From Blastococcus sp. (lineage in GTDB: Bacteria; Actinomycetota; Actinomycetes; Mycobacteriales; Geodermatophilaceae), in contig JAODNN010000048.1 in assembly GCA_025465355.1 (NCBI GenBank), positions 1 to 32,207 of the forward strand: a DNA stretch of 32,207 bases, given 5' to 3'. Shown here piece by piece: positions 22,293-32,207 of this stretch. Within the stretch, counting starts at the first letter, position 1. Every line of letters starts with the position of its first letter. The notes below the pieces were generated by a model. The model saw only the letters and a list, made by a program, of their open reading frames with translations. It searched no databases and was not told the DNA's origin. A program made the translations under genes and the position numbers.

Positions 22293-24833
22293 TCAGGTCC
22301 GGACGAACAGCCGCCGGTGGGTGGCGCCCGGCGCAGCCACCCGGACGCCGGTACGCGCCAGCAGCCAGCTCTCCAACCGGTCATCGGCCAGCGGCCGGCT
22401 GACCAGGAAGCCCTGAAGCTTGTCGCAGCCCATCTCGGTGAGCAGGTTGCGGGTGAGCTCGTCCTCGACCCCCTCGGCGACGACCCGCAGGCCGAGATTG
22501 TGGGCCAGCTCGATGATCGAGCGAGCGATGAACGACTCGCCCTGGCTCGTCGACATCCCGAGCACGAAGGACTTGTCGATCTTCACCTCGTCGATCGGCA
22601 GCTGGCGAAGCTGGGACAGCGAGGAGTAGCCGGTGCCGAAGTCGTCCATCGACAGTCGCAGACCCAGCGCATGCAGGTCGGCGAGGACGGTGCTGTCACG
22701 CACGGAGTCGTCGACGACGCTGCCCTCCGTGAGCTCCAGGGTGAGCAGTTCGCCGGGCACGCCGTGTCGCTGCAGCGCCCCCCGCACCCGGGAGACGAGA
22801 TCGGGCTCGGTGAGGCAGTGCACCGACAGGTTCACCGCGACCGAGAGCGCGATGTCGTCGTCCAGCCAGCGCCGGCAGCGCAGGAGGGCGAGGTCCAGGA
22901 CGTGGTCGGTGAGCGCCCCGATCCGGCCGATCTGCTCGGCCAGGTGAATGAAGTCCTCCGGCGGGATGGCCCCGTAGCGCGGGTGCGCCCAGCGGACCAG
23001 CGTCTCGACCGAGACGATCTCCCAGGACTTCGCCTCGATGATCGGCTGGAAGACGACGCTGATCTGCCCGTCGGCCATGGCCTGCTCGAGTTCGGTGCCG
23101 AGCTGGAGCCGGCGGAGACTCTGCTGGTCCAGGACGGGGTGGTAGCTGGCGACACCGCCGGAGTCGGCGGCGGCAAGCAACGCGACGTCGGCGCGCTGCA
23201 TGAGCATGCCCGCGTCCGTCCCGTGCACGGGGGCAGCCGCCACCCCGATGGTCAGCGTGACCTCCAGATCGAGACCCGCCACCCGGACACGGGTCGCGGC
23301 GGCCTCGCGCAGCCGGCGGGCGGCGCGTTCGGTGGCGGCGAGCGACAGACCCGGCAGGAGGACGGCGAACTGCTCGCCCTCCATGCGCGCCAGCAGCGCC
23401 TGCGGGGGCGCGTGCTCGCGCAGCAGGCCGGCGGTGACGAGGAGGAGTTCGTCACTGGCGGCGTGCCCGAGAGTGTCGGTGACCTCGGTGTAGTTGCCGA
23501 GGGCGGCGAGGATCAGCCCGGCACGCGCGGCGACCGGCCCGGCCGACAGCAACTGCTCGATCTCGTCGGCCAGCCGTTGCCGGTTGGGCAGCCCGGTCAA
23601 CCGGTCGTGGTCGGCGTCGTAGCGGATCTGGGTCAGCAGTTGCTGCTGACGGATCGCGGCGTTGACGTGGGTGAGCATCGAGTCGAGCGCGGCGCGGTCG
23701 CTGTCGGCGAAGAAGACGACGTCGCTGCGACGGTCGCAGACCTCCAGGTATCCAGGCTCGCCGGCAGCCGTCATGACCGAGGCGCCGAGCAGGTCGGAAA
23801 CCCCGCGGCGGGCGAGCGCCGCGGCCTCCTCGTCGTCCGCCCTCCCCGCCGACACGAGGACCGGCCCCTCGGTCGCGGCGACCGCGCGCCGGCGAAAGAC
23901 GTCGTCAGGGTCCCCCGGCCCGTCGTACCAGACCGCGCCGTTCTCGGCGGAGACGACCAGGCGCGGCTCCTCGTCGAGGTAGGGCGGCAGCCAGAGCGCG
24001 ACACGCTCGGCGTTGAGCAGCTCGCGGACGGCCTCGACGATCTGCAGCGTCCCGGCCTCGTCGGGTGAGACCTCCTCGACCCGGCGGGCGAAGTCGTAGA
24101 CGCGCTCCACGCTGGTGCCGTCGCGGGCCACCTTGCCGAAGCGCCGGAAGAGCAGTCCCACGACGCTCAGCACGGGGAGGATGAGCAGCCACGACCAAGG
24201 GCTCAGCGAGGACAGCAGCAGCGCGATGGTCGCCACGACCACCAGCACCGGCGAGACGACGGCGATCGGCACCAACTGGTCACGCCACATCTGCGGGCCC
24301 GGGTATCCCGCAGTGACGATGATGGCGACGCTGACCATCAGCGCGCCGACGAGGTCGGACACCATCACGGCCACGATCAGCTCGAACCAGCGCAGCGGAT
24401 GGGCGAGCGGGGCCGCCGGCAGGACCTGGAGGACGGCGACCGCCACGGAGCCGTGCACGGTCATCGTGGCGACGTTGAAGACGAACTTGGGCGGCGAGTA
24501 GCCCTGGATCAGCATCAGGACGGCGATGCCGACGACCCAGGCCAGCGTGGCCCACGTACCGCCGACCTCGACGAGCGCGATCGTCAGCGCCAGCTCGGCC
24601 AGCGACCAGGAGTGGGTCTGCCGCCGGAACTCCACGTGCATGGAGATCGATTCACAGACCAGGAACAGCCCCGCCATGAGCAGCGTCGCGACGGGGCGGA
24701 ACGGCGTGACCGATGCCGGGAGCACGGCCGCCGCGAGAGCGACCGCCACGACGGTTCCACCGATGGCGAGCGTCCATGCGCGACGCGTGGCCGACGCAGA
24801 TGCCGCCGGCGCATCGATCTCGGGCTCGGTCAA
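22293..24833 (-). CDS. Membrane-anchored GAF–GGDEF(degenerate)–EAL cyclic-di-GMP protein
   Basis: An 846-residue signalling protein. Residues 20-232 hold about seven hydrophobic segments (MASE-like sensor), about 255-400 fit a GAF domain, about 405-560 the GGDEF domain and about 575-830 the EAL domain. The GGDEF active-site loop reads MEGEQF (484-489), so cyclase activity is probably lost. The EAL domain keeps its key residues: Glu610 in ETLVRW (ETL in place of EAL), Asn668, Glu700, Asp730/Asp731 in DDFGTG, Lys751, Glu787 in AEGVE and QGFLVSRPL. It should hydrolyse c-di-GMP, with the GGDEF part perhaps sensing GTP. The start is TTG 24831-24833 with no clear Shine-Dalgarno; a TAGCCT -10 lies 40 bp upstream. 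Confidence 0.92.
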   Translation of the reverse strand: MTEPEIDAPAASASATRRAWTLAIGGTVVAVALAAAVLPASVTPFRPVATLLMAGLFLVCESISMHVEFRRQTHSWSLAELALTIALVEVGGTWATLAWVVGIAVLMLIQGYSPPKFVFNVATMTVHGSVAVAVLQVLPAAPLAHPLRWFELIVAVMVSDLVGALMVSVAIIVTAGYPGPQMWRDQLVPIAVVSPVLVVVATIALLLSSLSPWSWLLILPVLSVVGLLFRRFGKVARDGTSVERVYDFARRVEEVSPDEAGTLQIVEAVRELLNAERVALWLPPYLDEEPRLVVSAENGAVWYDGPGDPDDVFRRRAVAATEGPVLVSAGRADDEEAAALARRGVSDLLGASVMTAAGEPGYLEVCDRRSDVVFFADSDRAALDSMLTHVNAAIRQQQLLTQIRYDADHDRLTGLPNRQRLADEIEQLLSAGPVAARAGLILAALGNYTEVTDTLGHAASDELLLVTAGLLREHAPPQALLARMEGEQFAVLLPGLSLAATERAARRLREAAATRVRVAGLDLEVTLTIGVAAAPVHGTDAGMLMQRADVALLAAADSGGVASYHPVLDQQSLRRLQLGTELEQAMADGQISVVFQPIIEAKSWEIVSVETLVRWAHPRYGAIPPEDFIHLAEQIGRIGALTDHVLDLALLRCRRWLDDDIALSVAVNLSVHCLTEPDLVSRVRGALQRHGVPGELLTLELTEGSVVDDSVRDSTVLADLHALGLRLSMDDFGTGYSSLSQLRQLPIDEVKIDKSFVLGMSTSQGESFIARSIIELAHNLGLRVVAEGVEDELTRNLLTEMGCDKLQGFLVSRPLADDRLESWLLARTGVRVAAPGATHRRLFVRT

Positions 24834-24872
24834 CGGTGACCCGGTTTTCTCGGAGTGGGAAGGGCGGCGCCG

Positions 24873-24878
24873 AGGCTA
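24873..24878 (-). promoter_or_regulatory. Possible -10 element for the EAL gene
   Basis: Minus-strand TAGCCT (TAnnnT class) lies 39 bp before the TTG start, with a weak -35 region. It would give a short leader and make the EAL gene independent of the micro-ORF further upstream. Confidence 0.3.
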
Positions 24879-24922
24879 ACAGCGTGGCGCCCGGTGACCG
24901 ACCGATTGCGCACCGAACGGGC

Positions 24923-24939
24923 GCGGTTCCCCGAACCGC
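24923..24939 (-). terminator. Hairpin after the (RSSRWS)4 micro-ORF
   Basis: A perfect 7-bp stem GCGGTTC / GAACCGC with a 3-nt loop, beginning 23 bp after the micro-ORF stop. There is no T-run. It may end the micro-ORF transcript before the EAL gene. Confidence 0.45.
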
Positions 24940-24962
24940 CCCGAGCCCGTCCGGCGGACCGA

Positions 24963-25064
24963 TCAGCTCCAGCGCGAGCTACGGCTCCAGCGCGAGCTAC
25001 GGCTCCAGCGGGAGCTACGGCTCCAGCGGGAGCTACGCGTGGTTGCGGTGGTGTGGGTGCTCAT
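24963..25064 (-). CDS. 33-codon Arg/Ser/Trp hexapeptide-repeat micro-ORF (unrecognised)
   Basis: A short open frame on the minus strand: ATG (25062-25064), a Thr-rich lead of about nine residues (MSTHTTATT), then four near-perfect copies of RSSRWS, the last followed by TGA (24963-24965). AGGAGG, a full Shine-Dalgarno core, stands 4 nt before the ATG, the best ribosome-binding site of any non-ribosomal gene in the window. The product would be strongly cationic (eight Arg), with Trp every sixth residue, no signal peptide and no acidic residues. I do not recognise a family. It could be a membrane- or nucleic-acid-active peptide, a leader peptide, or a chance reading of an 18-bp tandem repeat. 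The flanking hairpin and good ribosome-binding site argue against chance. Confidence 0.45.
   Translation of the reverse strand: MSTHTTATTRSSRWSRSSRWSRSSRWSRSSRWS
24966..25037. repeat. 18-bp tandem repeat, four copies
   Basis: Four head-to-tail 18-bp units of the type GCTCCAGCGSGAGCTACG. Units 1-2 have C and units 3-4 have G at the variable position. Each G-type unit contains the small inverted repeat GCTCC-AGCG-GGAGC, so the array could form a row of mini-hairpins. It lies wholly within the micro-ORF on the minus strand. Confidence 0.9.
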
Positions 25065-25236
25065 GACGCCTCCTGATGGGCATGACTGACTGCGGAAAGA
25101 GCGGCAGCCACCAACGCGCGGGGGCAGAGCGTCGTTCAGTACGGACCGCGCAGGAGACATTGCTTCCCGTCACCCGAAGGAGCAAGCACCGAAGATCACG
25201 ATGGTGTGACGCGCCCTCGCGTCGTCACTTTCTGTC

Positions 25237-25256
25237 ACATTTGTCGTACCAAATGT
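25237..25256. promoter_or_regulatory. AT-rich palindrome and GTCAC repeats, candidate operator
   Basis: ACATTTG-N6-CAAATGT is a perfect 7-bp inverted repeat in an unusually AT-rich patch. GTCAC occurs three times within about 35 bp around it (starting near 25224). It lies 22 bp after the stop of the large unknown gene and about 170 bp upstream of the micro-ORF. Operator and terminator roles are both possible. I see no other feature in 25065-25236. Confidence 0.35.
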
Positions 25257-25278
25257 CACCGATTCGGGTGGCGGAACG

Positions 25279-27357
25279 TCAGCGGGGAAGGACGCGGGTC
25301 AGGCGGCGAGCGTCCGCCAGATCCCTCCGCAAGGGGCCCATGGCGTCCTGGATCGGTGCCAGCCAGTCGCTCTCGGGAGACGTCGGTGGCGCCGGCACAT
25401 GGAGCGCGCGGAGCGTCCGATCGAATGCAGCGGCCGCCTGGCGGGCGACAGCGCCGGCCGCCACCGTGCTCTCGGGCGGCAGGTCCGTGAGGGCAGCACC
25501 GGCCGCCTTCGATCGGTCGAAGACCATCCCCCGATCCGGCCCGTTGTCCCAGGTGCCGTCGGTTCCGAGCGCGATGGCCGCGTAGCCCTCGAGCACGCCC
25601 GCGACGATGCCGCCCCTTCCGGGCATCAGACCGACCGCCAGACCGATGGTTGCGTCCCAGAAGGCCTGCTTGCCCTCGGCCGCCCTCCGCTCGTCGAATC
25701 CGTGCATGGCGTACGACAGCCGCTGGCCGTACTCCTTCACCGCGAGGTAGGCGCTGGGTACCGCCACCGCGGGAAGGGGATGCAGCGGGCTGGTCCCGTC
25801 GAGGGTTCCCGGCCGGACGCGCGCCCAGGACGACAGCGCCGACTCGACGGTCGCGGCGGCGCCCCGGTCGAGGGTGAGGTAGCCGAGCCCGCGAAGGACG
25901 CGGCCACGGACCGCGGTCATCCGGCCGTCGACCCCCACGCCGAGGGCATCCGCGGCAACCTCGATGTGCGCGGCGACCGCCCGGCTCAACGCGGGCGCCA
26001 CGGCCGCCGCGGTCAGGGGGCTGACGGTCCAGTCGACCGGGTCGCCGTCCGCCAGTCCCGCGCCCAGTGCCTCCAGACCGGAGCGCACCACGGCCGCGCC
26101 CTCCTCCCCCGGGCCGGAGGCAGCCACATCGATCAAGTTGCTGAGGGCGACCCCGCCGTCGGTCCAGAATCTCGCGAGCAGCGTGTCCCACGCCCGAGGT
26201 GACCCGAGGAGAGCGAGAGCTGGTCCGGAGGCCCCGACGTCCGCGAGGCCCTGTGCGACGAGGGCGAGCGGGTCCGCCGCCCCGCCACCGGCGGGCAACC
26301 CCTGTGCTCGCTCCCGGGCCAGCAGCTGGCGGCCCCACTCCACGAGGATGTTCGGGCGAAGGGTGCGACCGATCGATGCGCTCGCTGCCACGACCGCGGC
26401 CATTCCTGCCGCAACGACGTCCGAGGCGCCGTACCCGTCGTCGGCACGGACGTAGACCGCCGCCACGACCTCGCCGAGCGGATCGCCGGGGCCCCCGCTC
26501 GGCCCGGCGGCAGCAAAGGCCGCGCCCAGGAGTCGGGCCACGGCCGAGGTGGACGTGAGCGCGTTGTAACCGAGAAAGCCCAGCAACCCCGCCACACCCT
26601 CCACCCCTAGCCCCACGAGGAAGGCGTTGGCGAAGGCCTGCATCCCGGAGAAATCGGCCACGCCCTCTGCACGGGCCTCGCGCTGCTCCGGTGTCAGCGA
26701 GCCGGTAACGAGCGCCACAGCGAGGGCCCGACCGCGGGCGGTCAGCTCCGCATCGCCCCATCCGGGCAGGGCTGCCGCCAGGTGGGCGACGACCCGATCC
26801 GCATCGCCGCGAGCACCCCGCCCGCCCACCACCCCGCAGTACCGGGCAAGGGCGCGCGAGGTGGCCGCCGCGTCGTCCGCCACCTCCGCCAGCAGGACCG
26901 CGTGCCGACGCCGCCGCGCCGCCTCCGCGGCCTCGAACTCCGCCACGATCGCAACGGCCTCGGGGGCGTCGGCCCTGACCATCAGCTCGGAGAACCGCAG
27001 GCTCCCGAGACCGGCCCGGGCCGCGCGGAAGTCCTCGTCCTGCTCCGCTCGGAGCCGGCCGACGCCCCGGCGGGCCTCCTGCAAACGCTCGACATGTGCG
27101 CTGAGCCGGCCCGCCGCGGAGAGGACGGCGGTGGAGCAGTCCCGCGCCAGCCCCGCCACCGTCGCCACCTGGGTGACGGCGGCCGTCGCGTCGTCCCCGA
27201 CCCAGCCGGGGGCCGCCGTAGCCGGACCTGCGAGCCGGTCGCCCAGCCCGGCGAGCCGGAAGGCGGCAGCCCGGACCTCCTGCACCAGCTCGTCCAGCGC
27301 TTCGACGTCGCCGGGAGGCATCTCCAGCGGAACGGGAGCAGGCACCGTGGTGGTCAT
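25279..27357 (-). CDS. Large Ala-rich protein of unknown function, likely ESX/WXG100-related
   Basis: A 692-residue protein that I cannot assign to a function. The first ~160 residues are helical and Ala/Arg/Glu-rich, with alternating hydrophobic positions, and contain GWVGDDATAAV, a WxG-type turn like that between the two helices of WXG100/LXG-type domains. The middle (about 230-290) is Gly/Ala-rich and hydrophobic. The C-terminal ~170 residues contain conserved-looking LKEYGQRLSYAMHGF-type and FWDATIGLAVGLMPGRGG segments and TDGTWDNGPDRG. There is no signal peptide. The organisation recalls actinobacterial proteins exported by type VII secretion, or uncharacterised DUF families near them; this is inference. 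The ATG at 27355-27357 overlaps the stop of the small upstream gene by 4 bp, so the two are a translational unit. No ESX machinery gene is present in the window. Confidence 0.7.
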   Translation of the reverse strand: MTTTVPAPVPLEMPPGDVEALDELVQEVRAAAFRLAGLGDRLAGPATAAPGWVGDDATAAVTQVATVAGLARDCSTAVLSAAGRLSAHVERLQEARRGVGRLRAEQDEDFRAARAGLGSLRFSELMVRADAPEAVAIVAEFEAAEAARRRRHAVLLAEVADDAAATSRALARYCGVVGGRGARGDADRVVAHLAAALPGWGDAELTARGRALAVALVTGSLTPEQREARAEGVADFSGMQAFANAFLVGLGVEGVAGLLGFLGYNALTSTSAVARLLGAAFAAAGPSGGPGDPLGEVVAAVYVRADDGYGASDVVAAGMAAVVAASASIGRTLRPNILVEWGRQLLARERAQGLPAGGGAADPLALVAQGLADVGASGPALALLGSPRAWDTLLARFWTDGGVALSNLIDVAASGPGEEGAAVVRSGLEALGAGLADGDPVDWTVSPLTAAAVAPALSRAVAAHIEVAADALGVGVDGRMTAVRGRVLRGLGYLTLDRGAAATVESALSSWARVRPGTLDGTSPLHPLPAVAVPSAYLAVKEYGQRLSYAMHGFDERRAAEGKQAFWDATIGLAVGLMPGRGGIVAGVLEGYAAIALGTDGTWDNGPDRGMVFDRSKAAGAALTDLPPESTVAAGAVARQAAAAFDRTLRALHVPAPPTSPESDWLAPIQDAMGPLRRDLADARRLTRVLPR

Positions 27358-29739: not shown

Positions 29740-30393
29740 CTACTGAACGCTGCTTAGGTGCTGCCCGGAGTTGCCGTCGACCGCCTGCGTAGAAGGCAGC
29801 ACCTCCTGCAGCGCCGCCCTCATGACGGCGCCCGACGCGCCTTCGCCCGTGCCGGCGGCGGCCACGGTTACAGCCGCGGCGAAGTCGCTGACCTGCATAT
29901 GGCGGTCCCGGGAGGCCCGGAGCAGCAGGGTCCAGGCGTGCTCGGCGTCGCAGTCGTGGACATCCATCAGCAGTCCCTTCGCCTGCTCGATCACCGCCCG
30001 GCTGTGCATCGCCTGCTGCATGCCTGCGATCTGCGCCTCGAGCTTCACGACCTCGACGGACTCCTCGTCGCCCGACCCGCGGTGATCGATGACCCGGAAG
30101 GTGGAGCACAGGCCGGTGAGCTCCAGCAGCCGCGTGACCGGCCACGGGACTCGCCGTAGCCACAACCGCTCACCCAGCCGGGCCTCGGCCTCTAGCAACG
30201 GGCGAAGCCCCGCGCAGCTCATGAACGTGACCCTGGACAGGTCAACGACAACATCTCTCGGCGGGTCCGCGCCGGCACACGCCAGCTGCGAACGCAAACC
30301 GGGCGCCGCTGTGCCGTCCACCTCACCGGCCACGTACAACACCGACATGGTGGACGGCGAGGGGGCCGGGTGAATTGTCGCTAGACACGTCAT
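29740..30393 (-). CDS. STAS–ANTAR fusion regulator
   Basis: A 217-residue protein with a STAS (anti-anti-sigma) domain at about 16-104 (VLYVAGEVDGTAAPGLRSQL, DVVVDLSRVTFMSCAGLRPLLEA) and an ANTAR RNA-binding domain at about 117-172 (MHSRAVIEQAKGLLMDVHDCDAEHAWTLLLRASRD). The STAS phospho-site, normally D-S-S-G, reads S-C-A-G (59-62), so the usual phosphorylatable Ser is Cys60. ANTAR domains prevent terminator formation by binding dual hairpins in mRNA. A STAS input would tie this to a partner-switching or other protein-contact signal. Start: ATG 30391-30393, with GGAATGGGA upstream; the frame stays open to 30597 but lacks a good site. It is the first of three ANTAR genes in a row. Confidence 0.85.
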   Translation of the reverse strand: MTCLATIHPAPSPSTMSVLYVAGEVDGTAAPGLRSQLACAGADPPRDVVVDLSRVTFMSCAGLRPLLEAEARLGERLWLRRVPWPVTRLLELTGLCSTFRVIDHRGSGDEESVEVVKLEAQIAGMQQAMHSRAVIEQAKGLLMDVHDCDAEHAWTLLLRASRDRHMQVSDFAAAVTVAAAGTGEGASGAVMRAALQEVLPSTQAVDGNSGQHLSSVQ

Positions 30394-30820
30394 GCGATCC
30401 CATTCCGTGCACATCGAATGTGTCGATGCGCCGCCGGGTCCGGGGCAACACAACGGCTCCACCTGCGGAGGAGCGTCCTTCCTAGCTGCCAACCTACGCT
30501 CTGGAGCGATCGATTCGCTACGTGTCGAGTCGATCACGTTCGGCGTTGCCGGCTGCCCCTCTGACGACGACGGCATCGGTCGAGGACGGACCGGCATGTA
30601 GAGGTAGCGGCCCGGGTGATCACGCGCAGGGCGCCGGGCCCGGGGGGTGCGCGATCAGCCGTAGCGCGGCAGGTGCACCGTCCCGGAGCGACCGGTTCAA
30701 CAACGCCGGTAGAGCGGCATGCGGGCCCAGTGTCCACCGTGTCCCGCGGGCGGGCCCGCAGTTGGCCTGCGGCTGGAGCTCCGGGACGTTCCCGGGTAGC
30801 GCAAACCGGGCCGGGGCGGC
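30394..30820 (-). other. Gene-free stretch between two ANTAR genes
   Basis: About 430 bp between the STAS–ANTAR gene and the GAF–ANTAR gene. Open frames here are short, lack ribosome-binding sites and show no recognisable domain. The part next to 30393 probably holds the promoter of the STAS–ANTAR gene. I see no convincing hairpin pair that would mark an ANTAR target. Confidence 0.5.
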
Positions 30821-31543
30821 TCAGGCAGTCACGAGGACCCGCGCGTCGAGCGAGCCGTCCACCAACGCCGTCGCGACGGCGGTCAACGTGACGCCGTTGC
30901 CTCGGGCGTGGGTGCGCATCCGGGTGAACGCCTCGGCCACGCTGATGTCGACCCGGGCGGCCAACAGCCCCTTGGCCTGTTCGATCAGCACTCGGCTGGT
31001 CAACGCGCCCTGCAACTGCTCGGACAGCAGGCCCTGCTCGCTCAAGGTGCGCTCGTGCAGCAGACCGATGGTGGCCACGTCGGCCATCGCCTGGGCGACC
31101 GCGACGGCATCTTCGTCCAGGGCAGCTTGCCGGTCGGTGAACAGGTTAAGCGCGCCGATCACCTGCCGTCGCAGCCGCATGGGCACGGCGTGCGTGCCGC
31201 CGAACCCGGCTTCCAAAGCGGCCGGGGTGAACCGTGGCCACCGGTCCCGCGCCTCGGCCAGGTCGACGTTGACGACGGGACGGCCGGTGGAGAAGCACTC
31301 CAGACACGGCCCTTCCTCGGCCTGCAACTCGAACAGCTGCAACAACCGCGACCTCTCCACGGTGGAGGCCATCAGCTGCAGGTTCCCGCGCTGGTCGGCC
31401 AGCATCAGACCGGCGGCATCGACCCCCAACAGCTCCACACACCTGTCGACCAGCATCTGCAGGAAGTCCACCGTGTCGAACTCGTCGACCAGGGTGTCCG
31501 CGAGCTCCACGAACACCTTCGCCAGGCGTGGGGACCCGTTCAT
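30821..31543 (-). CDS. GAF–ANTAR domain regulator
   Basis: A 240-residue protein: a GAF sensor domain at about 25-165 (LVDRCVELLGVDAAGLMLADQRGNLQLMAST, EEGPCLECFSTGRPV, AVPMRLRRQVIGALNLF) and an ANTAR domain at about 172-232 (SRVLIEQAKGLLAARVDISVAEAFTRMRTHARGNGVTL). The Cys pair in GPCLECF is typical of the actinobacterial GAF–ANTAR group. It would sense a small ligand or redox state and act as a transcription antiterminator. Start: ATG 31541-31543, with GGAAGGG upstream. It lies 54 bp after a paralogous GAF–ANTAR gene, probably in one operon. Confidence 0.9.
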   Translation of the reverse strand: MNGSPRLAKVFVELADTLVDEFDTVDFLQMLVDRCVELLGVDAAGLMLADQRGNLQLMASTVERSRLLQLFELQAEEGPCLECFSTGRPVVNVDLAEARDRWPRFTPAALEAGFGGTHAVPMRLRRQVIGALNLFTDRQAALDEDAVAVAQAMADVATIGLLHERTLSEQGLLSEQLQGALTSRVLIEQAKGLLAARVDISVAEAFTRMRTHARGNGVTLTAVATALVDGSLDARVLVTA

Positions 31544-31597
31544 CGTCTGCCCTTCCCTGGTGTCCAACGGCGCGCGACCGGGCACCGCTCTGGTGCG

Positions 31598-32207
31598 TCA
31601 GTACTCAAGAATCCGCCCCTCGTCATCGCTCCGGAACCGCACAACCTTCTCGAGCACGTCCCGGGCGAGGTCAAGGATCGGGCGCTCTGCGGCGAAGGCC
31701 CGGGCGCGGAGCAGGACCATCGCCTGGGCCAGCGTCACGCCGGCCTGCACGGACACCATGCCACTGGCCTGGTGGACCTCGGCACGATCCTCGATCACCG
31801 AGATCGCCCCCACGTCGGAGCCGTCCAGAGCGTCCTGCGCCTGCAGGTGCAGCAACATAGCCGTCGCGGCGTCGGCGAAGCACAACGCCTCCGCGAGCTC
31901 TGCGTCGGACAAGATCCCGGGCCGATCGCGATACAGGTCCAGCACTCCGAGCCGGATCCCGCCCACCTGCAGCGGGAAGGCGAAGATCGCACGGATTCCC
32001 GCCTCCAACGCCCCGGCGGAGAAACCCGGCCACCGCGCCGGGCCCGAACGGGACAGGTCGGGCTGCAGCACCGGCCGCCCGGTCCGGATGGAGTCCACAC
32101 ACGGGCCCTCCCCGAGAGTGAACTGCAGGTCCTCCATCGTCTGCGCCGGACCGTCGGTCGCCGCGACCGTCCCGGCCGGGCCCTTGTCGGTCATCAACAT
32201 GAGGCCC
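31598..32207 (-). CDS. GAF–ANTAR domain regulator, N-terminus beyond window
   Basis: The last ~203 codons of a paralogue of the next gene. The in-frame text at the window edge (GLMLMTDKGPAGTVAATDG) aligns with GLMLADQRGNLQLMAST of the neighbour, so the true start lies outside. GAF part: TLGEGPCVDSIRTGRPV (only one Cys) and AIFAFPLQVGGIRLGVLDLYRD. ANTAR part (near the end): EDRAEVHQASGMVSVQAGVTLAQAMVLLRARAFA, more divergent, with EVHQASGM in place of the usual VIEQAKGL. RNA binding may therefore differ. Upstream gene of a likely two-gene unit. Confidence 0.85.
   Translation of the reverse strand, partial: GLMLMTDKGPAGTVAATDGPAQTMEDLQFTLGEGPCVDSIRTGRPVLQPDLSRSGPARWPGFSAGALEAGIRAIFAFPLQVGGIRLGVLDLYRDRPGILSDAELAEALCFADAATAMLLHLQAQDALDGSDVGAISVIEDRAEVHQASGMVSVQAGVTLAQAMVLLRARAFAAERPILDLARDVLEKVVRFRSDDEGRILEY

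Follow-up and report, generated by a model that had tools for sequence, protein, structure and literature searches.

A tryptophan-repeat micro-ORF and its adjoining S-component-like receptor gene in Blastococcus and other actinobacteria

The micro-ORF and the receptor gene

The window analysed here is the whole stretch of 32,207 nucleotides, which is the entire contig C128 of a Blastococcus draft genome (4.9 Mb in 195 contigs). On its minus strand, a micro-ORF read from 25064 to 24963 encodes MSTHTTATTRSSRWSRSSRWSRSSRWSRSSRWS and stops at TGA. The sequence-only reading had described 33 codons with RSSRWS repeats, an ATG 4 nt from a Shine–Dalgarno sequence, a TGA stop and a hairpin 23 nt further on, and this description was exact. 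The features of the locus are as follows.

22293..24833, minus strand: receptor gene, 846 aa, with an S-component-like membrane domain, GAF, degenerate GGDEF and EAL (TTG start assumed)
24873..24881, minus strand: extended -10-like TGTTAGCCT, the likely promoter of the receptor gene (TGnTAnnnT is conserved in relatives)
24923..24939, minus strand: 7-bp hairpin GCGGTTC-ggg-GAACCGC with no T run, beginning 23 nt past the micro-ORF stop (read from the sequence)
24963..25064, minus strand: Trp-repeat micro-ORF, 33 aa, (RSSRWS)4, ATG to TGA (translation, Tandem Repeats Finder, relatives and codon test)
25062..25203, minus strand: conserved 5' leader (covariance model R1, positions 1-139, E 6.8e-36)
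25069..25074, minus strand: Shine–Dalgarno sequence AGGAGG, with the ATG 4 nt further on (read from the sequence)
25088..25109, minus strand: leader stem GGCTGC / GCAGTC, with two of six pairs changed on both sides and 89% of cells paired
25116..25151, minus strand: core hairpin of the leader, GCGCGG...CCGCGC, whose loop is highly conserved (leader alignment)

Tandem Repeats Finder scored the 18-bp repeat of the micro-ORF at 130 (4.0 copies, 98% matches) and the seven other tandem arrays of the window at 41-48. The product matched no NCBIfam model, and no signal sequence was visible in it by eye. The RNA of 25080-24900 folded with a z of -1.31, which was equalled or bettered by 22 of 200 shuffles and speaks against special stability.

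Structure prediction of the N-terminal 262 residues of the receptor gave a mean pLDDT of 91.6 and a pTM of 0.85. When the predicted domain was compared with the PDB, the nine best matches were S components of ECF transporters (RibU, ThiT and FolT), two of which we took to be such. Their probabilities were 0.98-1.00, with target TM-scores of 0.49-0.69 and E values never below 0.013, and BioY stood at rank 11. By its predicted fold, the N-terminal domain thus resembles ECF-transporter S components. Among 30 receptor sequences, the GGDEF motif was degenerate (EGEQF) and the EAL residues that we take to be catalytic were kept. The sensor was the most variable domain of the receptor, with a mean identity of 49% across 34 genomes, against 74% for GAF and 87% for GGDEF.

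Receptors with an S-component fold have been reported with GAF, PAS, GGDEF, EAL and kinase outputs (Partipilo and Slotboom 2024, PMC11109136). In the main text of that paper, protease and peptidase do not occur and tryptophan occurs once, on side chains of helix 1. The window receptor is like the receptors treated there, including the 5TMR sensor histidine kinases, in its ECF S-component-like membrane domain. It differs from the 5TMR kinases in that no 5TMR Pfam family was among the matches listed for it, and its similarity to MASE9 was weak and below the cut-off.

Peptide genes and leaders in Geodermatophilaceae

A loose peptide search of 98 genomes returned short frames with different but parallel repeats amid chance matches. 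An exact DNA pattern drawn from the 5' leader matched 65 stretches in named genomes, nearly all from Blastococcus, Geodermatophilus, Klenkia or Modestobacter; three of them (L054, L073 and L084) look like chance. One record titled Bacillus sp. AZ43 (L069) carries a typical Blastococcus-like leader and peptide, and its label is probably wrong. A leader covariance model of 139 positions was built from 64 sequences. Of 112 Geodermatophilaceae genomes, 101 contained a match to it, spread over 9 of 12 genera; the genome of the window had one. Across 397 genomes of the order, it matched 75, all of them Geodermatophilaceae.

We read the frame at the end of the leader model for 107 matches, a subset of those from the 112-genome search. 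In 99 of them, the leader begins an ORF of 18-42 aa with at least two Trp motifs. These ORFs start with ATG (94) or GTG (5), and all 99 stop at TGA; AGGAGG precedes 63, and a close variant the remaining 36. The sequence-only reading had looked to a missing ATG or Shine–Dalgarno sequence, or to frame-breaking copy numbers, as signs against its peptide. A start codon and an SD-like stretch are present in 99 of 99, and repeat number, which ranges from 2 to 5, shifts in 6-codon steps. Repeats are uniform inside one gene and different between species. Among the other eight matches, two are peptides too degenerate for the two-motif count (L177 and L194), one leader precedes nothing (L184) and three are weak partial matches (L196 and the second matches in L144 and L200). 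The last two (L185 and the second copy in L137) are second leader copies in two Geodermatophilus genomes, where a membrane-type ORF of 70-77 aa with a hydrophobic stretch replaces the Trp peptide. In one genus without the leader (G037), the peptides MSRNGRWGRNGRWGRNGRWGRS and MSRAGRWGRAGRWGRAGRWGR also precede such receptor genes. One metagenome-assembled genome, Blastococcus RYN_169 (G006), has two leader-peptide loci with differing repeats (L077 and L097), reflecting either duplication or mixed strains.

To examine synonymy, we took 92 distinct genes that contain exact runs of R-x-x-x-W-x and compared each repeat copy with its neighbour. Differences fell at 13 first, 8 second and 281 third codon positions, each of 1104. 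Counted by codon, 284 differences were synonymous and 5 nonsynonymous, whereas 23% synonymous is expected of random single changes. The Trp-repeat frame is coding and under strong selection, and the synonymous excess refutes the suggestion of a structured RNA with no more than a coding appearance. In the first repeat, R1 and W5 were present in 92 of 92 genes, partly by construction since the run itself is defined by R and W. G2 was found in 77 of 92 and K or R at position 4 in 88 of 92; position 6 was limited to G, S, T, N and A, whereas 14 residues occurred at position 3, which was free. Eleven listed Trp peptides outside the run definition, mostly of the Modestobacter type TWKWNR, kept the W and did not always keep the leading R. 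Judged by comparison with relatives, the micro-ORF is beyond chance and a real gene of a Geodermatophilaceae family, given that most of the family's genomes have homologous ORFs behind this leader and that repeat-copy differences are almost all synonymous.

The place of this gene is fixed. The receptor N-terminus lies downstream in 102 of the 104 leader-match records with enough DNA (the exceptions are L184 and L185). Two of these 102 are non-peptide copies (the second copy in L137 and the second match in L144), in which it lies 658-727 nt off. It begins 128-285 nt past the stop in every one of the 100 peptide records whose DNA extends far enough.

Between the two genes, 97 of 98 relatives carry TGnTAnnnT downstream of the stop codon of the peptide, 77 of them in strict form, and the strict motif occurs in 0 of 297 controls. 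This stretch also folds better than mononucleotide shuffles (median z -2.5, 59 cases). Since a sigma-70 promoter scan found no full site and a terminator scan found no site on the minus strand, our statements on promoter and hairpin draw on conservation. The -10-like motif together with the better-than-shuffle folding suggests that the receptor gene probably has its own promoter.

These features bear on whether the micro-ORF is a transcription attenuator, in which ribosome stalling on Trp or Arg codons would govern read-through into the receptor gene. Leader peptides of attenuators, for example trpL, have a short ORF with Trp codons, a Shine–Dalgarno sequence and a hairpin before the next gene, and the micro-ORF, whose Shine–Dalgarno sequence is strong, is alike in all of these. 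It differs in that the gene downstream is a signalling receptor with a promoter-like motif of its own past the peptide. Conservation is not limited to regulatory codons either, as the repeats also retain G2, K/R4 and a small residue at position 6. Moreover, the hairpin has no T run, and Trp arrays lie upstream of histidine kinase receptors as well (see below). We therefore disfavour the leader peptide sensing Arg or Trp supply that the sequence-only reading had offered, and consider an attenuator quite unlikely.

The leader itself has a mean identity of 74% across 34 genomes. Covariation cannot judge its core hairpin, because five of the six pairs never vary. The GGCTGC / GCAGTC stem shows limited signs of compensatory change. 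RNAalifold on 22 leaders gave double changes in 4 of 26 pairs, and little was gained from a hand-made structure, in which 3 pairs were changed on both sides, a number reached by 86 of 500 shuffles. In an Rfam 15 scan of the window and of 24800-25400, no family reached the gathering score for the leader; T-box, cobalamin riboswitch and ANTAR hairpins were candidates that we also considered for its identity. As the leader twice precedes a small membrane-type ORF of 70-77 aa, it can serve another gene, and it is probably a cis-regulatory 5' UTR.

Tryptophan repeats beside sensor genes across Actinomycetota

Outside the family, a tandem Trp array lies upstream of receptor homologues in 14 of 49 loci, compared with 0 of 1500 control windows taken from these loci; 35 of the 49 are without one, and the 49 include some with little upstream DNA (L240, L241, L247, L249 and L251). 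One conserved Trp column was found in 14 of the 1500 control windows, and two in none. This control is clean, whereas one drawn from Geodermatophilaceae is no clean null because it includes true peptides. Since a simple Trp score of at least 4 was reached in 10-12% of random windows, tandem-repeat and Trp-count tests were used instead.

The arrays upstream of homologues are of the types (GATWS)n, (GSSWR)n, (GLRWN)n, (GAGWR)n and (GSQWS)n, together with 8-residue repeats in small ORFs. The latter, (FADGGSWT)n and (DGNTWTFV)n, come from a different family of the order (L210 and L212), where they lie ahead of the receptor in small ORFs led by a Shine–Dalgarno sequence; neither repeat has Arg or Lys. 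By eye, the Trp motif occurs twice in four further loci (L211, L219, L225 and L236) and singly in some small secreted-looking ORFs (L220, L221, L223, L227 and L229). The large upstream ORFs that we scanned are subtilases: 10 of 10 and 9 of 10 in two sets, and 2 of 2 in the genome of the window. At other loci, the repeats usually form the tail of a subtilase, and here they stand alone. The fixed adjacent receptor gene, the conserved leader and these Trp-repeat tails at the same place in other actinobacteria are context that goes beyond the sequence-only reading. Some of the tails are like pentapeptide-repeat proteins (Pfam) in their 5-residue repeats, and one scores 25.1 bits against Pentapeptide_3, for which the cut-off is 27. 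The micro-ORF differs from these proteins in its period of 6, as do other repeats with a period of 8, and pentapeptide repeats usually have Leu or Phe where Trp stands here.

We also used the sensor domain as bait. Its profile had matches in 31 of 149 Actinomycetota genomes. A Trp-rich upstream ORF, defined by at least 10 Trp in the last 150 residues, was present in 21 of 29 sensor loci from other genomes and absent from 8, versus 60 of 2909 control windows. Ten of the sensor-domain receptors were scanned for their outputs, which were GGDEF-EAL in four and histidine kinase in six; both types also occur among three sensor genes without a Trp neighbour. In the genome of the window, Trp repeats adjoin four of six sensor genes: that of the window, one on C177 with a subtilase 4 nt before the receptor ORF, one on C113 whose Trp tail is cut by the contig end, and one on C92 where the subtilase lies after the sensor gene. 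None were found beside the sensor genes on C111 (L343) and C188 (L375).

In the reverse direction, such a receptor follows 15 of 22 usable Trp-tail genes (weakly in L301) and is absent after 7. These 22 remain from 30 loci after dropping five with no real Trp tail (L296, L303, L304, L305 and L307) and three with less than 1200 nt downstream (L291, L299 and L306). The loci of a second Trp-tail search were left out, and several of the genomes are also in the receptor-homologue set. The linkage of Trp repeats follows the sensor domain, with either output.

This linkage argues against intracellular c-di-GMP binding through the Arg and Trp residues, by which the peptide would act as a sponge or local receptor. 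Short Arg-rich c-di-GMP-binding peptides exist, and the neighbouring receptor is predicted from its domains to degrade c-di-GMP through EAL. Receptors of the kinase type, however, have the same kind of neighbour, and many repeats elsewhere are without Arg. We regard such a sponge as highly improbable.

Consistent with a partnership between peptide and sensor, the two change in step. Among 34 genomes (one record dropped), in statistics made without a species tree, repeat-unit distance correlated with sensor distance after GAF, GGDEF and leader were removed (partial 0.267, 5 of 1000 permutations). The repeat unit did not correlate with GAF (partial 0.024, 375 of 1000) or with the leader (partial 0.066, 211 of 1000). 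A version with 28 sequences was similar (partial 0.277, 10 of 2000). The repeat units thus appear to covary with the sensor and not with GAF or the leader, and the effect is modest.

Covariation of this kind also bears on whether the product is a free cationic peptide, antimicrobial, membrane-active or nucleic-acid-binding, that adjoins a receptor by chance. "Cationic peptide", as the sequence-only reading had it, is right as a description: the net charge of relatives is +3 to +9 (K+R minus D+E), and the Trp residues are regularly spaced. A chance neighbour is at odds with the fixed neighbour gene and the sensor-specific covariation, and also with the finding that sensor genes across the phylum show the same theme with repeats that are neutral or acidic (FADGGSWT, for example). 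We consider a free peptide of this sort very unlikely.

Proposed role and gene neighbourhood

Our computations show that the frame is coding, that its place is conserved, that Trp repeats are linked to the sensor whichever output it has, and that repeat and sensor covary. As the adjoining sensor gene changes in step with the peptide, the peptide is probably a partner or signal of the sensor. Our preferred reading, which we hold a little likelier to be right than wrong, is that the translated micro-ORF yields a small cationic Trp-repeat peptide that is the cognate partner of the S-component-like sensor of the downstream receptor. The peptide would most likely serve the sensor domain of this GAF-GGDEF-EAL protein as a ligand or modulate its activity, and the level or processing of the peptide would set c-di-GMP breakdown by the receptor. 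We infer physical binding, and export or membrane side and the sign of the effect belong to the same inference. The side of action is ambiguous, since the peptide has no signal sequence, yet the subtilase tails are expected to be extracellular.

On this reading, the micro-ORF would be the free-standing version of a pairing that is more widespread in actinobacteria, where a subtilase tail mostly carries the Trp repeats. What stays constant across lineages is repeated Trp in mostly polar surroundings next to one sensor fold, and the simplest reading of this is that the repeats act on the sensor. Extended to the phylum, Trp repeats that stand alone or form the tails of secreted subtilases would be dedicated, species-specific ligands of S-component-like receptors driving c-di-GMP enzymes or histidine kinases; we put this forward tentatively, as a possibility that we would sooner doubt than affirm.

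Peptide pheromones and their receptors can be encoded side by side. The present locus is alike in that a small variable peptide gene adjoins a variable membrane receptor domain with which it covaries; here, by contrast, the peptide consists of Trp units in tandem and has no signal sequence, and no adjoining maturation or export gene was identified. Literature searches found no description of such peptides, or of Trp-tail subtilases paired with these sensors. A peptide partner encoded beside its membrane receptor would be a known kind of arrangement, here with an unusual Trp-repeat anatomy. For many membrane sensor domains of c-di-GMP enzymes and histidine kinases, no signal is known. Our proposal supplies a specific candidate as partner to one large class of S-component-like sensors in actinobacteria. 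This candidate is encoded beside the sensor gene and is of synthesisable length, and its specificity could be probed with dozens of natural variants. The pairing would also explain a type of subtilase repeat tail, and it shows that ORFs of 20-40 aa can be conserved parts of signalling loci.

In a more specific version of the partner reading, the repeats would be a tandem-encoded signal, cut, for example by a subtilase or an Arg-specific protease, into identical short Trp peptides that the S-component-like receptor senses outside. The repeats are indeed uniform per gene and different between species, with position 3 free, they are carried by subtilases elsewhere, and they covary with the most variable domain of the receptor. 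Against this, the peptide has no export signal, any processing site is putative and no protease gene directly adjoins the micro-ORF, an M48 peptidase family lying further upstream in 16 of 45 records. We think such a cut and externally sensed signal unlikely.

Eight neighbour families recur around the locus: TadE/G-like, DUF520, two MaoC-type, M1 and M48 peptidases, an aminotransferase and one without a match. No known peptide-modifying enzyme family was found among these eight, one representative of each being scanned. This weighs against the peptide being a precursor of a post-translationally modified product, for example with Trp cross-links, which its short length and its repeated, species-variable Trp units would suit; we find that reading scarcely credible. 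TadE/G-like genes (34 of 45 records) and DUF520 genes (25 of 45) lie upstream on the opposite strand, the latter for example at L091:5044-5622 and in its relatives. DUF520 is the YajQ-type family, which has a link to c-di-GMP. In the window itself, three adjacent minus-strand genes (29740-30597, 30821-31585 and 31598-32200) have STAS or GAF domains; the ANTAR cut-off is reached by two of them and narrowly missed by the third.
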